DNA of 64,000 nt, from positions 4,112,088 through 4,176,087 of the forward strand of contig NZ_CP036268.1 of assembly GCF_007744515.1 (NCBI RefSeq), read 5' to 3'. The stretch comes from Stratiformator vulcanicus. Its GTDB lineage: Bacteria > Planctomycetota > Planctomycetia > Planctomycetales > Planctomycetaceae. A program made the position numbers and the translations under genes. The notes under the pieces were generated by a model. That model saw nothing but the letters and a program-made list of their open reading frames with translations. It had not been told where the DNA came from and made no database searches. Positions 1,936-57,888 of the stretch are shown here, in pieces. Positions within the stretch are counted from its first letter, which is position 1. Each line of letters begins with the position of its first letter.

Positions 1936-3143
1936 GGCGCTGTTCCCAGTCGATGGTCTTGGAGATGCTCTCCGAGGGCGACGGCCAAGCGGTCGATCTC
2001 GGGCCTATCGTTATACAGGTGGCACGAGACCCGAACAAACCGGCGTCCTCCCCAGTGAACAACCGGCACCTCGATCTTATCCTGCTCCCGCAGCGCGATC
2101 TGAAGCGGATCAGGTTTCCAGAAGCTGGCGTCCCGCTCGACCTCCGGCAGCGGCAGCGTGATCATTGACCCGAACATATCGTCATTGCCGTAGAGATTTG
2201 CGGGCAGACCGGTGACGTCCTGAATCCGTTGCCGCGCGTAACGTGCCAGCTGATGCGTTTCAGTGCGGAAACGGTCGACGCCATACTCTTCAAGGAATTC
2301 GATCGCCGCAGGCACCGCCAGAAACGCGGACGGATCGTGAGTGCCCCACCAGTGGAACTCGTCCTTCCACGACGCCTGCCCGCCACCAACGAGTCGACCA
2401 CCCCAACTCGCGATCAAAGGTTTGAAACCCTGTTGGTGCTTCCGCCGGACATAGAGGAACCCGGTCCCGAACGGCGCCGAGAGCCACTTGTGGCAACTGG
2501 CCGTATAGAAGTCGCAGTCGATCTTCCGCAGCGAGAGCGGCACCATCGCCGGAGCATGCGGACCGTCGACACAGACCTGGATGCCGCGTTCCCGGGCTCG
2601 CCGGCAAATTGCTTCGACCGGCAGGATCACCGCCGTGGGCGACGTGACATGGCTGACAACGATCAGCTTCGTCCGGTCGGACACGCGTTCAAACAATGAC
2701 TCGACAATCTCTGCGTCATCACCCAGCGTTCTCGGCAGCGATGCCACGACGATTCTTCCGCCGGTTTCATCGCAGTGCGATTGCCACATCCGCCGGACGG
2801 CACCGTACTCGTGGTTCGTGAGTAATACCTCGTCACCTGCTTCGAGGACCGTATTGCGCAGCACGATGTTCATCGCCACCGTCGCGTTGGGGACGAGAAT
2901 CAGATCGCGACCCTCGCATCCGACGAACTTCCCGAGCTTGTCGGCCGCGGCTTCGAGTTCGTTCTCGATTCGCCGCACGAAGAAGTCCATCGGTTGCGAT
3001 TCAAGCTCCCGGGTCCACCGCTCCCGCTCCGCCAGCACAGGCTCCGGCGAAGGCCCGAACGAACCGTGATTGAGGTAGGTCACTCCCTCACGAAGCCGCC
3101 ACTGATCCCGGATCGCTTTAGAACTCACAGAGGATGCGCTCAT
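1932..3143 (-). CDS. class V aminotransferase (isopenicillin N epimerase-like)
   Basis: PLP-dependent enzyme of 403 residues, normal length for the CsdA/isopenicillin-N-epimerase-like branch. The N-terminal LNHGSFG segment (24-30) is typical of this branch. The cofactor-binding region includes SHVTSPT (164-170) and the VDGPHAP segment (192-198), where the Asp should contact the pyridine nitrogen. The Schiff-base Lys is K219 in ASCHKW. The family covers epimerases, desulfurases and ergothioneine-type lyases, so the substrate cannot be named. First gene of a two-gene unit with the small membrane protein. Confidence 0.85.
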   Translation of the reverse strand: MSASSVSSKAIRDQWRLREGVTYLNHGSFGPSPEPVLAERERWTRELESQPMDFFVRRIENELEAAADKLGKFVGCEGRDLILVPNATVAMNIVLRNTVLEAGDEVLLTNHEYGAVRRMWQSHCDETGGRIVVASLPRTLGDDAEIVESLFERVSDRTKLIVVSHVTSPTAVILPVEAICRRARERGIQVCVDGPHAPAMVPLSLRKIDCDFYTASCHKWLSAPFGTGFLYVRRKHQQGFKPLIASWGGRLVGGGQASWKDEFHWWGTHDPSAFLAVPAAIEFLEEYGVDRFRTETHQLARYARQRIQDVTGLPANLYGNDDMFGSMITLPLPEVERDASFWKPDPLQIALREQDKIEVPVVHWGGRRFVRVSCHLYNDRPEIDRLAVALGEHLQDHRLGTAP

Positions 3144-3267
3144 GCTATCAATTCATCAGTTCATACAAGCCCAAGCCGCAAACCGTCGGGACACCCGCGA
3201 ATTCGATACTTAAATTGTCGAAAGATCAGAGAGCAGATATCAGAGCCACACATCGAAACCGTCAAGT

Positions 3268-3311
3268 GTCTCTCAACCCTCGTCTCTCAACTCTCAACCG
3301 CGAGCGCAGCT
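3268..3311. repeat. pyrimidine-rich short-word intergenic repeat
   Basis: Repetition of TCTCAAC-type words followed by a short palindromic GCGAGCGCAGCTCGC stretch between divergent genes. Similar low-complexity strings occur near 7.4, 8.05, 33.06, 57.5 and 57.85 kb in this window. Confidence 0.5.
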
Positions 3312-3392
3312 CGCCCCGCTAACCCTTGTCCCACCGACCCCAACCGCGAAGATAGTCTGCATTACCCACCATCGATCGAACACGAGGCTGAC

Positions 3393-4733
3393 ATGACACG
3401 GCGGATTGTAGCGGGATTCGGACTGATTCTCTCGGCACTCGTGTCGCCAATAGGCGGGGTCCCGGCCGCAGCCGATGACTGGCCCCAGTGGTTCGGCCCC
3501 AATCGCGACGGCATCTGGCGTGAAGCCGGTGTGTCGACCTCATTGCCCGACGACGCTTCCGGCGCCGCCTGGCGGGCACCGGTCAAGGCCGGTTACGCCG
3601 CACCCGCCGTCGCCGGGGGCCGGGTCTATCTGATGGATCGCACCACCGACCCGCTCGCCGTCACACCGGATAATCCGTTTCTCCGCGGCGACATCCCCGG
3701 CACCGAACGCGTCGTCTGCGTCGATGACGCCACCGGCGAAGAGCTGTGGGTCCATCAATACGATTGTGCCTATACGGTTTCCTATCCTCTCGGTCCGCGG
3801 GTGACGCCGACGATCTCGGGCGGCAGAGTTTATTCACTCGGGGCCGAAGGCGACTTTAAGTGTCTCGACGCTGAAACGGGCGAGGTCATCTGGGAGAAGG
3901 ATTTTAATGACGACTACCAAGCCGATACGCCGATGTGGGGGTTTTCTTCGCACCCGCTTGTCGACGGCAACAAAGTCATCACACACGTCGGCGGCGAAGG
4001 CTCCGCCGTCGTCGCATGGAATAAAAACACCGGTGAAGAACTGTGGCGCTCGCTCACCGTCCCCGAAATCGGATACGCCCCGCCGGTTATCTATGAAGCC
4101 GGTGGCGTGCGGCAACTCGTTTCCTTCCATGGCGGCGGCGTGAGCGGACTGAATCCCGAAACCGGCGAAGAGTACTGGACCGTTGAAATTGAAGTCCCCT
4201 TCGCGATGGCGATCGCGCTGCCGCAGAAGTCGGGCGACAAATTACTCGTCACGCCATATCAGCGGAACACGAAGCTGCTGCAATTCGCGGCCGATACGCC
4301 AACGGTGAAGACCGTTTGGACTTCGACCAATCGCACCGGCGTTCACCCGACGATCGCCACGGCCTATATCGTCGGTGATTACGTTTATGGCAACGGCCTC
4401 AACGGCTGGTTCCGCTGCTTTAAACTCGCGGATGGCGATCGCGTATGGGAAACACTCGAACCAACCACCGGTGATCGCCCCGAACGCTGGAGCACCGTCT
4501 TCCTCACGCCTCACGAACCGAGCGGCAAGTATTTTCTCTATAACGAACACTGCGAATTAATGACTGCCGAGCTGAGCCCGGAAGGTTACAAGGAGCTCGA
4601 CAGGGTTCAACTCTTAAAACCGACCGCCACCGCCGGCAACCGCGACCTGGTCTGGTCGCATCCCGCCTACGCGAACAAAAGTGTCTATGTACGGAATGAC
4701 GAGGAGCTGATTAAGGTTTCGCTGGCTGAGTAA
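3393..4733 (+). CDS. exported PQQ-like beta-propeller protein
   Basis: Start chosen at 3393 because it gives a clean signal peptide (MTRRIVAGFG..., cleavage after about residue 27); the reading frame is open upstream but that part is not protein-like. The 446-residue product starts its mature part with DWPQWFGPNRDG, characteristic of planctomycete PQQ-like proteins. Repeated blades such as DATGEELWVH, DAETGEVIWEKD and NKNTGEELWR mark a WD/PQQ-type propeller. These proteins are predicted to be periplasmic; most have no proven dehydrogenase activity, so a structural or binding role is as likely as catalysis. Confidence 0.85.
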   Translation: MTRRIVAGFGLILSALVSPIGGVPAAADDWPQWFGPNRDGIWREAGVSTSLPDDASGAAWRAPVKAGYAAPAVAGGRVYLMDRTTDPLAVTPDNPFLRGDIPGTERVVCVDDATGEELWVHQYDCAYTVSYPLGPRVTPTISGGRVYSLGAEGDFKCLDAETGEVIWEKDFNDDYQADTPMWGFSSHPLVDGNKVITHVGGEGSAVVAWNKNTGEELWRSLTVPEIGYAPPVIYEAGGVRQLVSFHGGGVSGLNPETGEEYWTVEIEVPFAMAIALPQKSGDKLLVTPYQRNTKLLQFAADTPTVKTVWTSTNRTGVHPTIATAYIVGDYVYGNGLNGWFRCFKLADGDRVWETLEPTTGDRPERWSTVFLTPHEPSGKYFLYNEHCELMTAELSPEGYKELDRVQLLKPTATAGNRDLVWSHPAYANKSVYVRNDEELIKVSLAE

Positions 4734-4826
4734 GCAAAGACAGCTCGGTTTACTCAGTCACCGTGAACGGCGATCGTTCTGTTTGAGATGAGGGTGAACT
4801 TTCTCACCGGCGAATCAGAAAGATGA

Positions 4827-6341
4827 ATGATGAAATCTCAAAACCGGTCAGGGTTATTAACATCGTTCTCACTGATCCTGCTCATCGCCCACGGCTTCGC
4901 GGCTGAGGGGGCGGACACTCTCACTCCTTTATTCGTCACTGTCGACATGAACGTCGGCGAGCGGCAGGCCGTCGAGTTGACTGACGGGACGAAAATCGAG
5001 ATCGAGTTGCTGTCGCTCGACGAGCGGCGAGACCGGATTAGTAATGCCGTCCGCAAAGCCACCGTAAAGGTAAGGCTCGATGATCAGGTAACCGAACTGA
5101 TCGCCGCTACCTATCACCTCCCGAAGACCGTCGGAGCGGCACAGGTCGATTGTGCGGTCACGCGTGGCTATCGATCCAACAGCCGAAATCGTTCATGGGG
5201 TCTTAAGAAAGACGCGAGATTGCGTTTGTGGCCGAAGAATTCGCCTTGGATTCGCGCCGAAACGTTTCGGTATCCCGTCGAGCAAAAGTGGTTCGCCAGC
5301 TTAACCCAGATGGCCAATGAGCCGACCTATGTCGATGCAGGCGAGTCGCCGCAGAGAAAAGAAGTTTATTATCACAGCGGCCTTGATATGGGCGGGGTCG
5401 AAGGAAAAGTGCCGGTCCACGCGGCGACTGACGGCATCGTGGTTTCTTCCGGTATTAATGTCATGAGAGAACACGAGCGGGGGACCCCGGTCTCGCCGCG
5501 GTATGACGTCGTCTATGTGCTCGATCAGCGTGGCTGGTACTACCGCTACAGCCACCTCAAGGAAATTAATGACGCGATCAAGCCGGGGCGGCGGGTCAAG
5601 ATCGGACAGCGAATCGGCACCCTCGGCAAGGAGGGCGGCAGCGGCGGCTGGTCGCACCTTCATTTTGAAATTAAATCGTGGCAACCGTCAGTGGAATGGG
5701 GCACCCAGGCCGGCTATGCGTTTCTCTGGGAGGCGTATCGCCGTCAATTTAATCCCTCGATCATTGCCGTCGCGCGACCACACCACTTCGTCACCGTGGG
5801 CGAAGATGTGACGCTCGACGGATCGAAGTCATGGTCGAAGTCGGACGGTCCGCTCTCTCATCAGTGGAATTTCCACGACGGCACATCGTCGACGGAATCA
5901 TCGGTCGTTCGAAAATACGAAACGCCGGGTAGTTACAGCGAGGTTCTTAAGGTCACCGACAAGGACGGCAGAGTCAGCTACGACTTTGCCGCCGTGCATG
6001 TCGTCGATCTCGACCGGCCGGAAGTCTTGCCGCCGACGGTGAATGCGGCATACTGGCCGACATTAGATATCAAGCCGGGCGATCCCGTCGAATTCGCGAT
6101 CCGCAGTTTTCGTAACAGCACGCCGGGCGAGATGATTAATTTTGGTGATGGAACCGACGTGGTTAAAGTCACCTCCGACGGTAACCGGGAGTCGCTGGCA
6201 CCCGATGGCTATGCAAGAACAACTCACCGCTATGAACGTCCCGGGGACTATCTGGTCCGTGTCGAAACCGTCAATGAACACGGTCTAAGAGCCATGACGC
6301 ACCTGCACGTGCGGGTCGAGTCGCCCGAAGACCTGAATTAG
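4827..6341 (+). CDS. M23-family metallopeptidase with PKD domain
   Basis: Exported protein of 504 residues with a signal peptide in the first 26. The middle (about 175-300) is an M23/LytM-like fold: YHSGLDMGG supplies the first His and Asp zinc ligands and WSHLHFEI the HxH pair. A PKD-type Ig domain follows at about 330-400 (SKSWSKSDGP, YETPGSYSEV) and a second beta domain with DFGDGT-like features ends the protein. M23 enzymes cut peptidoglycan cross-links, but many are attached to other matrices; planctomycete peptidoglycan is thin. Zinc ligands appear complete, so activity is plausible. Confidence 0.8.
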   Translation: MMKSQNRSGLLTSFSLILLIAHGFAAEGADTLTPLFVTVDMNVGERQAVELTDGTKIEIELLSLDERRDRISNAVRKATVKVRLDDQVTELIAATYHLPKTVGAAQVDCAVTRGYRSNSRNRSWGLKKDARLRLWPKNSPWIRAETFRYPVEQKWFASLTQMANEPTYVDAGESPQRKEVYYHSGLDMGGVEGKVPVHAATDGIVVSSGINVMREHERGTPVSPRYDVVYVLDQRGWYYRYSHLKEINDAIKPGRRVKIGQRIGTLGKEGGSGGWSHLHFEIKSWQPSVEWGTQAGYAFLWEAYRRQFNPSIIAVARPHHFVTVGEDVTLDGSKSWSKSDGPLSHQWNFHDGTSSTESSVVRKYETPGSYSEVLKVTDKDGRVSYDFAAVHVVDLDRPEVLPPTVNAAYWPTLDIKPGDPVEFAIRSFRNSTPGEMINFGDGTDVVKVTSDGNRESLAPDGYARTTHRYERPGDYLVRVETVNEHGLRAMTHLHVRVESPEDLN

Positions 6342-31849: not shown

Positions 31850-32632
31850 TTAAGCGATATGCGTAATCGTGCCGCCGTAGTAGACCGAACTACCGGCCTC
31901 ATTCTCTAAGGTAATCCCGCCGCCGTCATCCACGCCCCGGCACAGACCGTAAGTCACGCGATCGCCTGATGAGAGCCCGACGGTTCGCCCCGTGAGCGCG
32001 CAGTGCGCCGCGTAACGCTTTCGAGGGAAGGCCCGGCTGTCGCGATAGTCGCCGAGTTCCGATTCCAATCGAATTAAGATTTCGATTAAGTGTTCGCTAG
32101 GGTCGACACTTTGATCCGCGATGTCATTAAGGGAAATCGCCCGATCGCGAATCTCGACGGACGCGTTTCGAAAGTCAACGCCCACATTAATTCCGATTCC
32201 AATCACAAGGAAGGGAATTGCGCCTGCACGCTCAATCTCGACGAGTATGCCACAGACTTTCTTCCGATTAATTAAGACATCATTGGGCCATTTCAGTTGA
32301 ACGCAAACGTCACCCAGTTTTGAGGAAATCGCGTCGCGAACGGCCAATCCGGTGATTAATGACACGAGTGGAAGTTCCGCCGTCTCCAACTTAAAATCAG
32401 CCGGATCGATCACGACCGAAAACGTCAGTGATCCGCTGCCAGCGACCCATCGATTTGCCCCTCGACCGCGCCCGGCTGTCTGACGAGTCGCGAATACGAG
32501 GACGGGAGTGCTGACTTCTCCCGCCGAGATCAACGACTTCGCACGGTCGTTCGTCGAATCGAGCGACTCGTGGGCATCGATCACCGCGACCATCGTCTCG
32601 GTCGCAATCCGCGACTTCAGTTCGGGTGTCAT
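31850..32632 (-). CDS. birA: biotin--[acetyl-CoA-carboxylase] ligase
   Basis: 260 residues, single-domain (no N-terminal repressor helix-turn-helix), so a ligase only. SLDSTNDRAK, the biotinyl-AMP loop GRGRGANRW (about 54-62), LKWPNDVLINRKKVCGILVE and VIGIGINVG are all canonical. It attaches biotin to carboxyl-carrier domains; pyruvate carboxylase at 60.3 kb is one substrate in the window. A small coiled-coil gene lies 34 bp upstream on the same strand. Confidence 0.92.
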   Translation of the reverse strand: MTPELKSRIATETMVAVIDAHESLDSTNDRAKSLISAGEVSTPVLVFATRQTAGRGRGANRWVAGSGSLTFSVVIDPADFKLETAELPLVSLITGLAVRDAISSKLGDVCVQLKWPNDVLINRKKVCGILVEIERAGAIPFLVIGIGINVGVDFRNASVEIRDRAISLNDIADQSVDPSEHLIEILIRLESELGDYRDSRAFPRKRYAAHCALTGRTVGLSSGDRVTYGLCRGVDDGGGITLENEAGSSVYYGGTITHIA

Positions 32633-32666
32633 AGCGGAATTCTCGCCGAAGTCGCCGGGCGACGGG

Positions 32667-32837
32667 TCATTTCACCTGGAGCTTTTCCACTTCCGTGTGC
32701 AACGCCTGAAGTTCCTTTTCCAGCCGGGTCACTTCGGCCGGATCGTCCGTCTGTCGTTTGGCGGCACCGAGAAGTTGTTCGGTCCGTTGAATCTTCCCCC
32801 GCAGCACGGCGAGTTGCTTCTTCGATTTCTTATCCAT
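32667..32837 (-). CDS. 56-residue coiled-coil protein
   Basis: Short gene. Starts MDKKSKKQLAVLRGKIQ and ends with a charged heptad-like helix (EVTRLEKELQALHTEVEKLQ). GAGGGG lies 3-8 bases before the ATG, a good ribosome site. Thirty-four bp upstream of birA on the same strand, so probably in one transcript. Protein-like composition with a basic head and an amphipathic tail suggests a real small gene; I have an impression of similar small proteins in planctomycetes but cannot confirm it. Role unknown. Confidence 0.7.
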   Translation of the reverse strand: MDKKSKKQLAVLRGKIQRTEQLLGAAKRQTDDPAEVTRLEKELQALHTEVEKLQVK

Positions 32838-33047
32838 ATTCCCCTCGAGGTGATGTTTCTGCGGAACCCGCCATTCTATTCACCCGCAGGTGCTGCGCGA
32901 ATTCAGACACACCCTCAGACGCCAAGAATTCCGACCGATCACTCCGTCCTACGTGACACGGAGCGCAAGCGACAACACCTCCAATCGCCAACCCACTGCA
33001 AAACAAGGGAGGCAAAAGAGATCATTCAGGCCACGAACTATTACACA

Positions 33048-33093
33048 ACTTCACCAACCTGCTCTCGACTCTAGACACTCGACTCTAGACTCA
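33048..33093. repeat. CTCTAGACT short-word repeat
   Basis: ACTCTAGACACTCGACTCTAGACTC-like tandem words after CAACCTGCTCTCG; related in style to 3268-3311 and 57826-57888. Confidence 0.5.
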
Positions 33094-33116
33094 AAAAAGC
33101 CGGACGCGTCCGGGCA
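33094..33116 (-). terminator. minus-strand intrinsic terminator
   Basis: CCGGACGCGTCCGG palindrome followed on the minus strand by six T. It would end a transcript coming from 33.1-33.3 kb. Confidence 0.6.
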
Positions 33117-33117
33117 T

Positions 33118-33311
33118 CATGCCGCGGCATCATCCGCCGCATGGGAAATGCGCAGCCAGTCGGCCGCACCCACCGGCGGGTTGAAAAGAGGCGGTGCACC
33201 GTTTTCCTCTACCTGATGGGAGATGGTTGCGCGGATTTTGGCGTGGCACTGAGTTGCGAAAGATAGGGTGTGGCCCGGCGAGAAGCTGATCGGGAACAGA
33301 TGCCGCTCATA
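33118..33311 (-). pseudogene. possible frameshifted gene remnant
   Basis: On the minus strand one frame (open from 33311, no ATG/GTG/TTG start) reads ISHQVEENGAPPLF, then a shift near 33180 gives PPVGAADWLRISHAADDAAA and a stop at 33118, 2 bp before the terminator. This looks like an end-of-gene with a one-base indel and lost start, but could be chance. Confidence 0.2.
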
Positions 33312-33479
33312 CTACATCATCGGTGAAAAAATGGTACAAGGGCTCAGAGATAGCTACGGGTTGTTGAACCGGCTCTGGGTCGACGATTCGAAGCAGCCGA
33401 GCGAGATACCGACATTCCGTCAGAAGTAATAGATCGAGCCAACCAACTAACGTCGGCATCATTTGAAACAGACCGAACA

Positions 33480-35216
33480 ATGCGACTAAGAGTGATTGCA
33501 ACAGACTATGACGGCACGATTGCCATAGACGGCGTACTTAATCCGAGCGTTCGTGAGGCGATCGGGAATGCACGCAAAAGTGGAGTGTTGGTGGTCATCG
33601 TAACCGGGCGGATTCTCTCGGAACTTCGGGACGTAGCCGGCTGTCTGGATTTCGTCGATGGCGTCGTTGCCGAAAACGGAGCCGTGGTTGCTTTCCCGAA
33701 TGGCCATGTCACCGTTCTCGGTGCAGGACCGCCGTTGGCTCTCATTACGAAACTGACCGAACGGGGAATTGATTTTAAAGTTGGTCGATGTGTGGTCGAA
33801 ATGGATGCCGAGTTCGCCGATGTGGCGATATCGCTTATTCGCGAAATGCAGTTGCCGTTGGCCATCACTTTTAACCGTGGACGAATGATGTTGCTGCCGC
33901 CCTCGATCAGCAAGTCGGGCGGGCTGCGTCAATTGCTCGACACGCTCAACGTGTCAGTTCACAACGCCATCGGCATCGGTGACGCCGAGAATGATCATGA
34001 GCTGCTTTCCTGCTGTGATCATGGCGTGGCAGTCTCGTGGGGGTCGGCACGATTGAAAGAGTCGGCCGATTTTGTCCTCGAAGGCGACGGCGTCGAAGCT
34101 GTCGCCGACTATATCGCAGGAGTATCAACTGAAATCCGATTGCCTCGTGCGGCGTCGATCCATCATAAGGTGGTGCTGGAAGAGGTCGGCGGCCAACCTC
34201 CGTTTGAAGTGTCGATTCGTGGTCGCAATGTCCTCGTCGCCGGAGACACAAAAAGCGGCAAGTCGTGGCTGGCGGGGCTGCTCATTGAGCAGCAAATTCT
34301 GAAAACATATACCGTGTGTGTGTTTGACCCCGAAGGCGACTATAGCAGTCTCGCTTCGCTGCCGAACACGGTTTCACTCGGCGGCGGCCACATGTTGCCG
34401 CATGACAACGACCTCAAGATTTTATTGCAACAAAGACTCAGCGTTGTTTTAGATCTGTCGCATCTTGAGCACCATCAGAAGAGAGAATACATTTGTCATC
34501 ATTTACCGTTGGTCGCGAATCATCGCCGTAACTACGGTTACCCGCATCGGATTGTTCTGGATGAATGCCATTATTTTCTCCGCAGTCCGCGTGATAATGA
34601 ATTGCTCGACTTTCAACTCGATGGCTACACACTGGTCACGTATCACCCCTCAGAATTGCCAGCCGCGATCTTAAATTCAGTCGAAGTCGTGGCGGCCACG
34701 CGACTGACCGAAAGTGCGGAAGTTGATGTTTTGCGCGACCTATTTGATGCCAAGAGCGACGAATACATCGACTCTCACGACTGGTACGAGCAGCTGGCCA
34801 ACCTCGGGATTAATGAATCGGCGCTGCTTCCGCCGACCGACGAGGCCGAAGGGCGCCTTCGCCGCTTTATCGTCGCGCCCCGCTTGACCGATCATGTCCG
34901 GCACCGCAGTAAGTACTTCGACATGCCCGTCGCGAAAGAGCACGAGTTTGTGTTCACCACGAACGGACAAGCTTTCGGGGAATCGGCTGCCACACTCCGG
35001 GAACTGACGATGGCCGCCAAACGAGTCACAGCAGACGTGTTATCCAATCATAGCCGACATCACGATTTTTCACGCTGGATTATCAACCTGTTTTGCGACC
35101 GTGAACTTGCCAACAACGTTCGCAAAATTGAATCGACAATGAACCTCGATGGGGATGTCGACCGCTTTCTCACAGAATTGCGTGACGCCGTGCAACAACG
35201 ATATGAAAGCGATTGA
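33480..35216 (+). CDS. HAD-IIB phosphatase fused to HerA-like P-loop ATPase
   Basis: Two enzymes in one 578-residue chain. Residues 1-215 are a Cof-type HAD: motif I DYDGT (9-13, nucleophile D9 and D11), VTGR (41-44), Lys145, and motif IV GIGDAENDHEL (165-175). After a short linker a DUF87/HerA-like ATPase follows: Walker A GDTKSGKSW (255-263), VFDPEGDY (281-288), Walker B RIVLDE (357-362), then about 200 residues with no recognised fold. HAD-IIB enzymes dephosphorylate sugar phosphates; HerA-like ATPases move DNA or act in defence and conjugation. What joins them here is unknown. Confidence 0.8.
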   Translation: MRLRVIATDYDGTIAIDGVLNPSVREAIGNARKSGVLVVIVTGRILSELRDVAGCLDFVDGVVAENGAVVAFPNGHVTVLGAGPPLALITKLTERGIDFKVGRCVVEMDAEFADVAISLIREMQLPLAITFNRGRMMLLPPSISKSGGLRQLLDTLNVSVHNAIGIGDAENDHELLSCCDHGVAVSWGSARLKESADFVLEGDGVEAVADYIAGVSTEIRLPRAASIHHKVVLEEVGGQPPFEVSIRGRNVLVAGDTKSGKSWLAGLLIEQQILKTYTVCVFDPEGDYSSLASLPNTVSLGGGHMLPHDNDLKILLQQRLSVVLDLSHLEHHQKREYICHHLPLVANHRRNYGYPHRIVLDECHYFLRSPRDNELLDFQLDGYTLVTYHPSELPAAILNSVEVVAATRLTESAEVDVLRDLFDAKSDEYIDSHDWYEQLANLGINESALLPPTDEAEGRLRRFIVAPRLTDHVRHRSKYFDMPVAKEHEFVFTTNGQAFGESAATLRELTMAAKRVTADVLSNHSRHHDFSRWIINLFCDRELANNVRKIESTMNLDGDVDRFLTELRDAVQQRYESD

Positions 35217-35290
35217 GTTAAGGCACCCCCTCGGAACGAATTTTGGAGTGCGACGGGTGGCCGGGGTCAAAGGTGTATTGATTCAAACGG

Positions 35291-35325
35291 CGGGTAGCCC
35301 GGAGGTTACACCTCCGGGCTACCCG
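35291..35325. repeat. 16-bp perfect palindrome, possible bidirectional terminator
   Basis: Arms CGGGTAGCCCGGAGGT and ACCTCCGGGCTACCCG around TAC, 75 bp after the fusion gene and 21 bp from the end of the converging oxidase. The same ACCTCCGGGCTAC unit appears at 57470 and 57819. Likely stops both transcripts. Confidence 0.65.
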
Positions 35326-35345
35326 TTTATATATAAGCGCAAGCA

Positions 35346-36467
35346 TCATATCCGCTCCTCCACACCCAAAAACCCTATCGGCTGCTCCGTCTCACCATCA
35401 ATCGCCAAGTCCGCCAGCACCTCGCCGAGGACACTCGCAAACTTAAACCCGTGGCCGGACAGGCCGGCGGCGAAGGCGACTTGGGGGTGTTCGGGGTGGC
35501 GGTCGACGTAGAAGCGGCCATCGGGGCTCATGGTGTAGAAGCAGGTGGCGTGGCGCGTTGGCTGCGGATCGGCGGCGGGGAGGAACTGCCGGGCGAATTC
35601 GGCGAGCGGTTCGGCGTCGCGTTCGAGCAGCGCGGGGTCGATGTCTTCGGGTCGGTCGACGGGGTCGCCGCCGGTGTGTTCGGAAAGCTTAATTGTGGCA
35701 CCGTCGAGCGACGGGAACCCATAATAGTCACCGCGGGGCCGGACATAATAAAAGACGGGGCCGGCGTCGTACGCATCGCCCGTCTTCGGCAGCCAGAGTA
35801 GCGTCTTCCGCAAGATTTTAAGATTGAAGCCGAGGTCGCTGATGAGATCAGTCGCCCATCCGCCGGCCGTGATGACCAATCGTGCCGCCTCATATTCGCT
35901 TCGCTCGGTCCGCACGCGGACTCCATTGTCGGTCGGCTCCCAATCGATGACCGCCGTCTCGAATTGTGACTCCGCCCCGTTCTGCCGGGCGCGTTCCAGA
36001 TGGGAGCGGATGCAGTCTTCGACCCGCAGATAACCGGCCCCCGGTTCATAGACGATGCTGTCGGCTTCGTCGAATTCAAAATTCGGAAAACGACGGCGTG
36101 CCTCGGGAGGACTGAGTTGTTCGAGTTTCAGTTTATGTTCGCCGGCAGAGCGGAGACATCCTTGGACGCACGGTCCGTCGGCCGGTCCGGCGATAAATAA
36201 GCCGCAGGCTTCGAGCAGTGACCGACCGGTGTCACATTCGAGTTCACGCCATAACTTTTCAGCCCGTTCAAGCAGCGGGACATAATTGGTGTGTTCGAAA
36301 TAGGCTTTTCGCGTGGCTCTCGTTTCGCCATGAGAACTGCCACGGTCATGGACGGTCCGGAACTGTTCAATGCCCAGCACCCGCTGCCCTCTCCGTGCAA
36401 GATGATCGAGCGCCGCGCTGCCGACCCCGCCTAAACCAAGGACGATGCAGTCATAGGTGACGGACAT
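35346..36467 (-). CDS. solA: N-methyl-L-tryptophan/sarcosine oxidase-like flavoprotein
   Basis: 373 residues, the size of monomeric sarcosine oxidase and SolA. FAD-binding Rossmann motif CIVLGLGGVGSAALDHLARRG (about 6-26) followed by GIEQF; SSHGETRATRKAYFEH is the signature downstream of the flavin site in this family; HGFKFASVLGEVLADLA near the end covers the covalent flavin region, but the usual Cys is not obvious to me. Oxidises N-methyl amino acids to formaldehyde, H2O2 and the amino acid. Exact substrate uncertain. Confidence 0.85.
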   Translation of the reverse strand: MSVTYDCIVLGLGGVGSAALDHLARRGQRVLGIEQFRTVHDRGSSHGETRATRKAYFEHTNYVPLLERAEKLWRELECDTGRSLLEACGLFIAGPADGPCVQGCLRSAGEHKLKLEQLSPPEARRRFPNFEFDEADSIVYEPGAGYLRVEDCIRSHLERARQNGAESQFETAVIDWEPTDNGVRVRTERSEYEAARLVITAGGWATDLISDLGFNLKILRKTLLWLPKTGDAYDAGPVFYYVRPRGDYYGFPSLDGATIKLSEHTGGDPVDRPEDIDPALLERDAEPLAEFARQFLPAADPQPTRHATCFYTMSPDGRFYVDRHPEHPQVAFAAGLSGHGFKFASVLGEVLADLAIDGETEQPIGFLGVEERI

Positions 36468-57260: not shown

Positions 57261-57540
57261 GAAGTCCCTCGGGAGCGTGGAGCGGTATTGGTTCACGATG
57301 ACGAACAGCAGACCGACCTTTAATCATCCATCGGCGCGTTCGCTTGTTCAAGGGATTGCTCGCGTCTTCCCCAAGAACAGCCAAACAATTCAGATCAAGA
57401 CCGAATGGCAAGCTTTTCCGCCGCCTTCGTTCTTCTTTCTTCACGCAGGTGGTAGGGAAGTCACACCTCCGGGCTACTCGCTTTTATCTTCTGTCTCCTG
57501 TCTCCCTTTCACACCGGTGGGCATAGCCCGGCCTACACGA

Positions 57541-57642
57541 AGCGGCAGCCGGGATTTTGTGACCTACCGTTGCTCGGTTATCCTCGCTGCCACTCTGCGC
57601 TGATTGAATCTCCATGAAATGATCCAATTATGCTGCGCGGGT
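57541..57642 (+). pseudogene. decayed duplicate of the 5' end of the zinc-ribbon gene
   Basis: This stretch matches 57925-58016 along about 100 bp, including CGGCAGCCGGGATT, GTGACCTA, GTTGCTCGGTT and a start region: ATGAAATGATCCAATTATGC against ATGAACTGTTCCAATTGTGC in the intact gene. The third codon is now TGA and the second Cys codon is TAT (Tyr), so the copy is dead. It then runs into the MITE-like copy at 57662. Confidence 0.6.
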
Positions 57643-57661
57643 AGGCCGGACGTAACCACCT

Positions 57662-57810
57662 CCGGGCGGCGAAGCCGCAAGAGGTTTGGTGTGGAGTTTC
57701 GTCGGCCAAGGAAACCCCGAAATTCGATTCGCGGCGGCTCCCGACGATCTGTCAGCCGACGTTGTTCATTGAGAACTCGACCTGCAACCTCTTGTCGCTA
57801 GGCGACCCGG
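57662..57810. mobile_element. MITE-like element, copy 2
   Basis: Terminal inverted repeats CCGGGCGGCGAAGCCGC... (57662-57687) and ...GTCGCTAGGCGACCCGG (57786-57810). The left arm matches 6445-6467 in reverse complement with one difference. Internal sequence differs from copy 1. Confidence 0.55.
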
Positions 57811-57825
57811 AGGTGTGACCTCCGG

Positions 57826-57888
57826 GCTACCAACTTCCAACTTCTGTCTTCTAAGTACTGTCTTCTAGCTCCTGTCTCCCGCTTCCAG
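57826..57888. repeat. pyrimidine short-word repeat
   Basis: CTTCTGTCTTCTAAGTACTGTCTTCTAGCTCCTGTCTCC-like words. Its reverse complement resembles 7376-7409. Confidence 0.45.

Follow-up and report, generated by a model that had tools for sequence, protein, structure and literature searches.

Described HAD-IIB phosphatases such as PH1421 (PDB 1wr8), YidA and SupH/YbiV stand alone, and HAD-IIB enzymes of known substrate act on small molecules. Trehalose-6-phosphate phosphatases have a related fold within the same group. P-loop kinase and HAD domains can also share one chain, as in T4 polynucleotide kinase. The ATPases of the HerA/FtsK clade, which include archaeal HerA, Sir2-HerA, DUF4297-HerA, VirB4 and FtsK, have in common a core fold, Walker A and B motifs and a strand bearing the DxxGD/EY motif; to our knowledge, the clade includes no kinase and no ATPase whose role is purely one of metabolism or signalling. 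By one published definition, the clade carries an arginine finger that immediately precedes strand 4 and a glutamine that ends strand 4 and serves as sensor-1 (PMC10853773), and an excerpt on Deinococcus HerA places the trans-acting Arg513 after the Walker B residues D487/E488 (PMC9960219). A further comparator is OrfY of Thermoproteus tenax (PDB 4cso), a DUF5752 protein that was deposited under the depositors' label "transcription factor". Like standalone DUF5752 proteins, it consists of two repeats and has neither a HAD nor an ATPase domain. How Sulfolobus (PMC7688234) and T. tenax (PMC3634074) make trehalose is the subject of two papers, whose accessible portions contain nothing on OrfY.

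Here we describe a gene of Stratiformator vulcanicus, located in a stretch of 64,000 nucleotides (the window), whose product joins a HAD-IIB phosphatase, a predicted HerA-fold ATPase and a DUF5752-like tail in a single chain.

Results

The gene is a single open reading frame with an ATG start and a TGA stop and occurs in one copy in its own genome (Table 1). Its product passed the curated Pfam cut-offs for both Hydrolase_3 (6.8e-26) and DUF87 (9.1e-8), in agreement with the initial annotation, which had read a HAD phosphatase and a P-loop ATPase in one chain. Colinear relatives aligned over the full length in both a 19-sequence and a 67-sequence alignment, and residues D9, D11, T13, D172, G255, G260, K261, D283, E285, E362, R474, H475, F490, F492 and W533 were invariant in 67 of 67 aligned members. 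Because relatives run from end to end and D9, D11, G260, K261, D283, E285 and E362 are identical in all 67, the fusion frame is neither chance nor a chimera; a unique fusion or an annotation accident is ruled out by its conservation, and the phosphatase-ATPase fusion is a real single protein. An AlphaFold2 model of the full chain had a mean pLDDT of 93.6 and a pTM of 0.87. Every motif that had been quoted for the protein was found (Table 1; VFDPEGDY lies at residues 281-288), and with catalytic residues kept across the 67 members both sites appear intact at the level of motifs.

Table 1. Coordinates in the window of the fusion gene and its parts
Feature	Position	Strand	Basis
Whole gene, 578 aa: HAD-IIB phosphatase, HerA-fold ATPase, DUF5752-like tail	33480..35216	+	ORF, Pfam, alignments, model
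HAD-IIB phosphatase domain, ~residues 1-215	33480..34124	+	Hydrolase_3, TIGR01484, Foldseek
HAD motif I DYDGT (9-13; putative nucleophile D9, D11)	33504..33518	+	D9, D11, T13 in 67/67
HAD motif III lysine K145	33912..33914	+	K in 66/67, R in 1/67
HAD motif IV GDAEND (167-172)	33978..33995	+	D168 in 65/67, D172 in 67/67
ATPase core, predicted HerA/FtsK fold, ~residues 224-480	34149..34919	+	VIA Z on model
Walker A GDTKSGKS (255-262)	34242..34265	+	G255, G260, K261 in 67/67
DPEGDY (283-288), position of HerA DxxGD/EY	34326..34343	+	D283, E285 in 67/67; aligns with HerA DPHGDY
Walker B RIVLDE (357-362)	34548..34565	+	D361 in 65/67 (E in 2), E362 in 67/67
RHRSKY (474-479), conserved ATPase/tail junction	34899..34916	+	R474, H475 in 67/67; K478 in 61; Y479 in 66
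DUF5752/OrfY-like tail, ~residues 490-578	34947..35213	+	hhalign, PDB 4cso profile match, PF19027 in some members

When the product was scored against NCBIfam models, it passed the HAD-SF-IIB model TIGR01484 (66.8 bits against a cut-off of 41.8) and fell below both the Cof model TIGR00099 (73.3 bits against 137) and the phosphoglycolate phosphatase model. The first description as a Cof-type HAD thus stands at the level of HAD-IIB, but its subfamily label was too precise. The best PDB match of the full model in Foldseek was the HAD protein PH1421 (1wr8_B, E 3.6e-16), and trehalose-6-phosphatases were also among the fold matches; profile and fold comparisons place the domain near known sugar or phosphoglycolate phosphatases. 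The Trehalose_PPase family (PF02358) gave no Pfam match in the window protein and was matched weakly by one of 67 members (1.8e-4). Fold, catalytic motifs and the HAD-IIB cut-off are shared with PH1421, YidA and SupH/YbiV, whereas the window protein adds the ATPase and the tail. As in the HAD family at large, D9 of motif I would be the nucleophile.

For the middle part, a second model spanning residues 218-578 (pLDDT 92.1) returned HerA proteins in both Foldseek and VIA, with VIA Z scores of 24.0 to 8xav_A (rmsd 3.0, 242 aligned) and 23.7 to 4d2i_A (rmsd 3.0, 237 aligned). Structure prediction thus bears out the P-loop fold that had been proposed for this region. The HerA-aligned range covers positions 7-263 of this model, which extends the core to about residue 480, and the tail first given as 200 unrecognised residues shrinks to some 90-100. 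The marks of the clade are largely missing. GRK, as in the EGRKFG arginine finger, occurs between Walker B and strand 4 (residues 361-387) in none of 67 members, and GR in four; GRK is found at other positions in 18 of the 67, never preceded by E or D. HMMER alignments opened a gap opposite EGRKF in three HerA chains, while a fourth, YjgR, aligned without such a gap. The sensor-1 glutamine is absent at residues 387-390 except in one of 67 members (L063). Nor is there room for an N-terminal HAS barrel, as the HAD domain fills residues 1-215 and only about 39 residues remain before Walker A; aligned HerA chains begin at residue 110-117 in several of the top structural rows. Another arginine (R349 or R474) might substitute for the finger. 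Judged by these residues, the domain would not be a standard ring motor, and the earlier reading as a DNA-translocase-type ATPase is weakened.

The tail was compared with DUF5752 by profile methods. An hhalign comparison of 28 tails with 14 standalone DUF5752 proteins gave 97.7% (E 2.3e-12), and the family profile matched both repeats of 4cso, at 3.9e-13 with the ATPase-plus-tail profile and 3.6e-11 with the full profile; the C-terminal 118 residues of the window protein alone reached only 0.02. Eight of the 67 members matched PF19027 at E 1e-3 or below, and the window protein gave no match up to E 1. On the strength of these profiles, the C-terminal ~90 amino acids are homologous to one of the two OrfY repeats and form a DUF5752-like module.

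DUF5752, standalone or otherwise, passed its cut-off in 17 of the 199 planctomycete genomes, and the genome of the window was not among them. Flanking reading frames were scanned at 11 of the 14 strongest standalone loci (L106, L110 and L115 were left out), and in 10 of these 11 planctomycete loci a GT20, trehalose-phosphatase or TreT gene adjoined the DUF5752 gene or lay near it. GT20 was seen in six loci (L105, L107, L109, L111, L112, L113) and TreT in eight (L102, L104, L105, L107, L108, L109, L112, L114), and L105 also holds a Trehalose_PPase gene; in L103, the sole flanking reading frame scanned matched no family. DUF5752 may therefore be part of trehalose-synthesis complexes. In another planctomycete, a PPDK_N (pyruvate phosphate dikinase ATP-binding) domain is fused to DUF5752 (L118:3-1961).

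Relatives of the fusion are widespread, and the initial impression that it is unusual did not hold. Within Planctomycetota, 12 of 294 sampled genomes matched at E 1e-30 or better, its own genome counted. In a sample of relatives, 9 of 40 genomes gave a match (own included), three of which (G348, G352, G358) were matched over the HAD part only. HAD-only reading frames 37-38% identical to the HAD part occur in planctomycetes of the same class (L185:6500-7276, L186:7540-8229, L187:8332-9423). Among plasmid records, 14 matched, and in 11 of these the match spanned 80% or more of the query: Sinorhizobium (4), Aminobacter (2), Synechococcus, Paraburkholderia, Caballeronia, Agrobacterium and Nonomuraea. 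Species genomes yielded at least 415 relatives at E 1e-3, some perhaps of the HAD part only; the best 80 of these loci were kept, and most match nearly the whole query (L047 and L086 are among the exceptions). In database records, relatives are labelled, for example, "HAD-IIB family hydrolase".

A tree was built from 67 members, which fall into 13 phylum-level groups (Acidobacteriota, Actinomycetota, Pseudomonadota, Planctomycetota, Myxococcota, Cyanobacteriota, Chloroflexota, Methylomirabilota, Rokubacteria, Nitrospirota, Melainabacteria, Verrucomicrobiota and Gemmatimonadota), with three rows unassigned. Since this quick tree required 27 changes of phylum label where 12 would suffice, the fusion gene may have moved between phyla. 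Two copies per genome were seen twice, once in tandem (L049:1275-2990 and 3129-4838) and once in G106 (L008 and L013). N-terminal extensions in L005/L045 and L054 held no Pfam domain over the cut-off and may be read-through, and that of L063, which matched none of the other sequences compared, may resemble a segment of sensor kinases and is given no weight here.

The gene is flanked in the window by a BirA-type ligase gene on one side and an FAD oxidoreductase gene on the other, with a sulfatase beyond, and the earlier statement that no partner nuclease or system gene flanks it is correct. At 1.7-4.8 kb upstream there are genes for CheX, a receiver protein and an HDOD-GGDEF protein. In the genome of the closest relative (G024, 71% identical), the same strand encodes, in order, a histidine kinase, an NtrC-type sigma-54 regulator, a 138-residue protein (u139), a GreA/Rnk-like protein, a protein that from its sequence may be hibernation-factor-like, a universal stress protein, a membrane-like protein, the fusion protein and a Dps-like ferritin, with two short opposite-strand reading frames before the ferritin gene. 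The putative hibernation factor and the membrane-like protein had no Pfam match. A second relative (L022, 68% identical) shows GreA-like, histidine kinase and regulator genes, a weak u139 match and then the fusion gene. The window gene stands outside the stress cluster that contains its closest relatives. In its own genome, u139 had no match in a search with little power to exclude one, and the regulator had ten listed relatives of 34-44% identity. In L053 (1450-6401), a PAS/GAF histidine kinase gene overlaps, at ATGA, one reading frame that encodes receiver, HAD, DUF87 and DUF5752 domains; a phmmer search with this receiver found no second receiver fusion among 79 members whose start was examined.

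No partner common to the family emerged from neighbour clustering or from a Pfam tally of the 118 nearest neighbours (120 chosen reading frames minus L031:6416-9841 and L055:6713-9793, set aside for their size). CBS proteins were commonest (4), followed by GT4-type, MFS and response regulator proteins (3 each), and no nuclease or other effector was among the 25 commonest of at least 160 families.

To compare neighbours with background, 36 loci were set against 53 control regions from those genomes and records, within 10 kb; the control stretches were hand-picked by contig number and coordinate rather than drawn at random, and 13 were under 10 kb. L167 was left out, as a GT20 gene had already been seen on its contig. 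One set of queries was 11 families from L188, a locus outside the test set whose near relative L022 lies inside it. With p values uncorrected for the 11 families, universal stress protein (5/36 loci versus 0/53 controls, p 0.009), histidine kinase (12/36 versus 6/53, p 0.012) and NtrC-type regulator genes (10/36 versus 5/53, p 0.025) were more frequent near the fusion. There was no enrichment of Dps-like, u139 or GreA-like genes (1/36 versus 0/53 each), of hibernation-factor-like, membrane and sigma genes (0 versus 0), or of u315 and Kef-like genes (0 versus 1).

Another set, of 15 families, was picked after inspection of the loci, with source loci excluded and counts uncorrected for the number of families. 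CBS and P-type ATPase (5/35 versus 0/53 each), histidine kinase (12/35 versus 5/53), response regulator (10/35 versus 5/53) and universal stress protein genes (5/34 versus 1/53) were more frequent. GT20 and amylo-alpha-1,6-glucosidase (0/35 versus 0/53 each) and TreT genes (0/36 versus 1/53) were not enriched, and neither were PRC (0 versus 0), hemerythrin and phosphoketolase (0 versus 1 each), GT4 (2/35 versus 1/53), acyl-CoA synthetase (2/35 versus 0/53), alcohol dehydrogenase (2/35 versus 1/53) or ABC ATPase (9/36 versus 7/53). The enrichment of two-component and stress genes near the family is modest.

Discussion

What we infer for the activity, gating, substrate and stress role of the fusion protein is, with a probability of about 0.4, a soluble, nucleotide-gated phosphatase under stress control. 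The HAD-IIB domain, in which the catalytic residues are kept, would dephosphorylate a small metabolite, with sugar phosphates as the most likely substrates; the trehalose context of standalone DUF5752 genes points in the same direction. The HerA-fold domain would bind ATP or ADP and serve the HAD domain as a slow sensor of energy or as an assembly switch, not as a motor on DNA, a role that its conserved ATP-site residues, its predicted fold and its missing finger and sensor-1 glutamine would suit. The tail, as kin of the standalone genes of trehalose loci, would be a module for docking or for a ligand. The protein may be used or expressed in connection with stress, and two-component signalling genes are often close by: both closest relatives (G024 and L022) sit beside a histidine kinase and an NtrC-type regulator gene. 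Against this count the lack of a family-wide neighbour, the hibernation-factor-like and Dps-like genes, seen at 0 and 1 of 36 loci and not enriched, the equal lack of enrichment of GT20, TreT and amylo-alpha-1,6-glucosidase genes, the uncorrected p values and the chance that another arginine replaces the finger. Of the regulatory, transport or defence roles first suggested, a regulatory one fits best, whereas defence is weakened by the missing motor marks and the lack of a common neighbour; an energy- or signal-controlled stress phosphatase is more likely than a defence protein.

The protein could instead be an output of two-component or stress signalling, in which the HAD domain would act on a phosphoprotein or signal metabolite and not in bulk metabolism, with the ATPase and tail placing it on a partner. 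Such a role would account for the kinase gene that overlaps the receiver-HAD-DUF87-DUF5752 frame of L053, for the kinase/NtrC pair clustered with the two closest relatives and for the higher frequency of both gene types than in control stretches. We consider it unlikely, since a receiver fusion was seen in 1 of 79 members (by phmmer with one receiver query), HAD-IIB relatives of known substrate act on small molecules, and the enrichment is modest and uncorrected.

It is less probable still that the protein is devoted to dephosphorylating trehalose-6-phosphate or a related disaccharide phosphate, with its tail anchoring it in a synthase complex. The own genome has no GT20 match, no TreT match and a separate S6PP-family gene, and a dedicated trehalose role in this genome is therefore unlikely. 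Across genomes or records that carry the fusion, GT20 passed its cut-off in no more than 21 of 37, and for TreT the count was 9 of 34, and the single member matching Trehalose_PPase did so weakly. This proposal draws on the standalone DUF5752 genes among GT20 and TreT genes, with Trehalose_PPase as well in L105, on the trehalose-6-phosphatases among the fold matches and on Aminobacter, where GT4, amylo-alpha-1,6-glucosidase and trehalose-6-phosphate synthase genes lie beside the fusion gene.

A kinase-phosphatase switch, with the P-loop domain phosphorylating the molecule or partner that the HAD domain dephosphorylates, has a precedent of architecture in T4 polynucleotide kinase and would explain why both active sites are kept together across members. 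One member matches APS_kinase (5.3e-4) and the family profile matches CysC (4rfv, 2.5e-4), but these matches are weak and lie around the P-loop, and the fold is that of HerA/FtsK, a clade with no kinase that we know of; we regard this switch as quite improbable.

Least probable is a role as a HerA-type ATPase linked to DNA or to defence against phages, for which the HAD domain would be the effector and to which the best fold matches (HerA proteins, several from defence complexes) and PADLOC matches to HerA (5.9e-6) and mad8 (8.8e-6; 2.2e-13 in L016, the homologue from Synechococcus sp. PCC 7502) had pointed: the best PADLOC stretches are centred on the P-loop, the clade's finger, sensor-1 glutamine and HAS barrel are missing or nearly so, and no nuclease or effector adjoins the window gene or was seen among the commonest neighbour families, so that both translocase and defence readings are weakened and a defence role is unlikely. 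The comparison with Mad8, a MADS defence protein, was by this one profile; it gave the best PADLOC match of L016 over residues 234-299, around the P-loop, and at 314 positions the profile cannot span the three parts.

Returning to a nucleotide-gated phosphatase, we offer a broader version more tentatively, as doubtful on present evidence: an ex-motor ATPase of HerA/FtsK fold that would sense energy and gate the metabolite phosphatase to which it is fused, with DUF5752 for docking, as a general stress device in many phyla. If the ATPase does gate the phosphatase, a DNA-motor fold would have been reused as an energy sensor, and the protein would offer a first assay for the DUF5752 family. Although the protein has three domains, two strictly conserved active sites and a range of many phyla, database records name it for its first domain only. 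The domains themselves are known. We did not find described their widespread combination, in which the HerA-fold domain is without the motor marks of its clade, and the literature searched, which held few subscription papers, yielded no paper on the fusion, its tail or parts, or DUF5752; the fusion is thus widespread, but no known function for it was found there. The P-loop soil phosphatases Pho10 and Pho14D were rejected as counterparts, their nearest kin being a mismatch-repair ATPase and a tyrosine phosphatase, respectively, in the available part of the source (PMC6355987), and the accessible parts of PMC5715905 and PMC12839542 held nothing decisive.

The sequence around the gene has some features of its own. 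About 850 bases (32633-33479) separate the BirA-type gene from the fusion gene and contain only short overlapping reading frames, and no Rfam family was matched in 32600-35400 at E 0.1. Some 75 bases past the stop codon lies a perfect 15-base inverted repeat with a 3-base loop (35292-35324). The exact hairpin occurs once in the genome, and one of its arms has three looser matches at 57466-57832.
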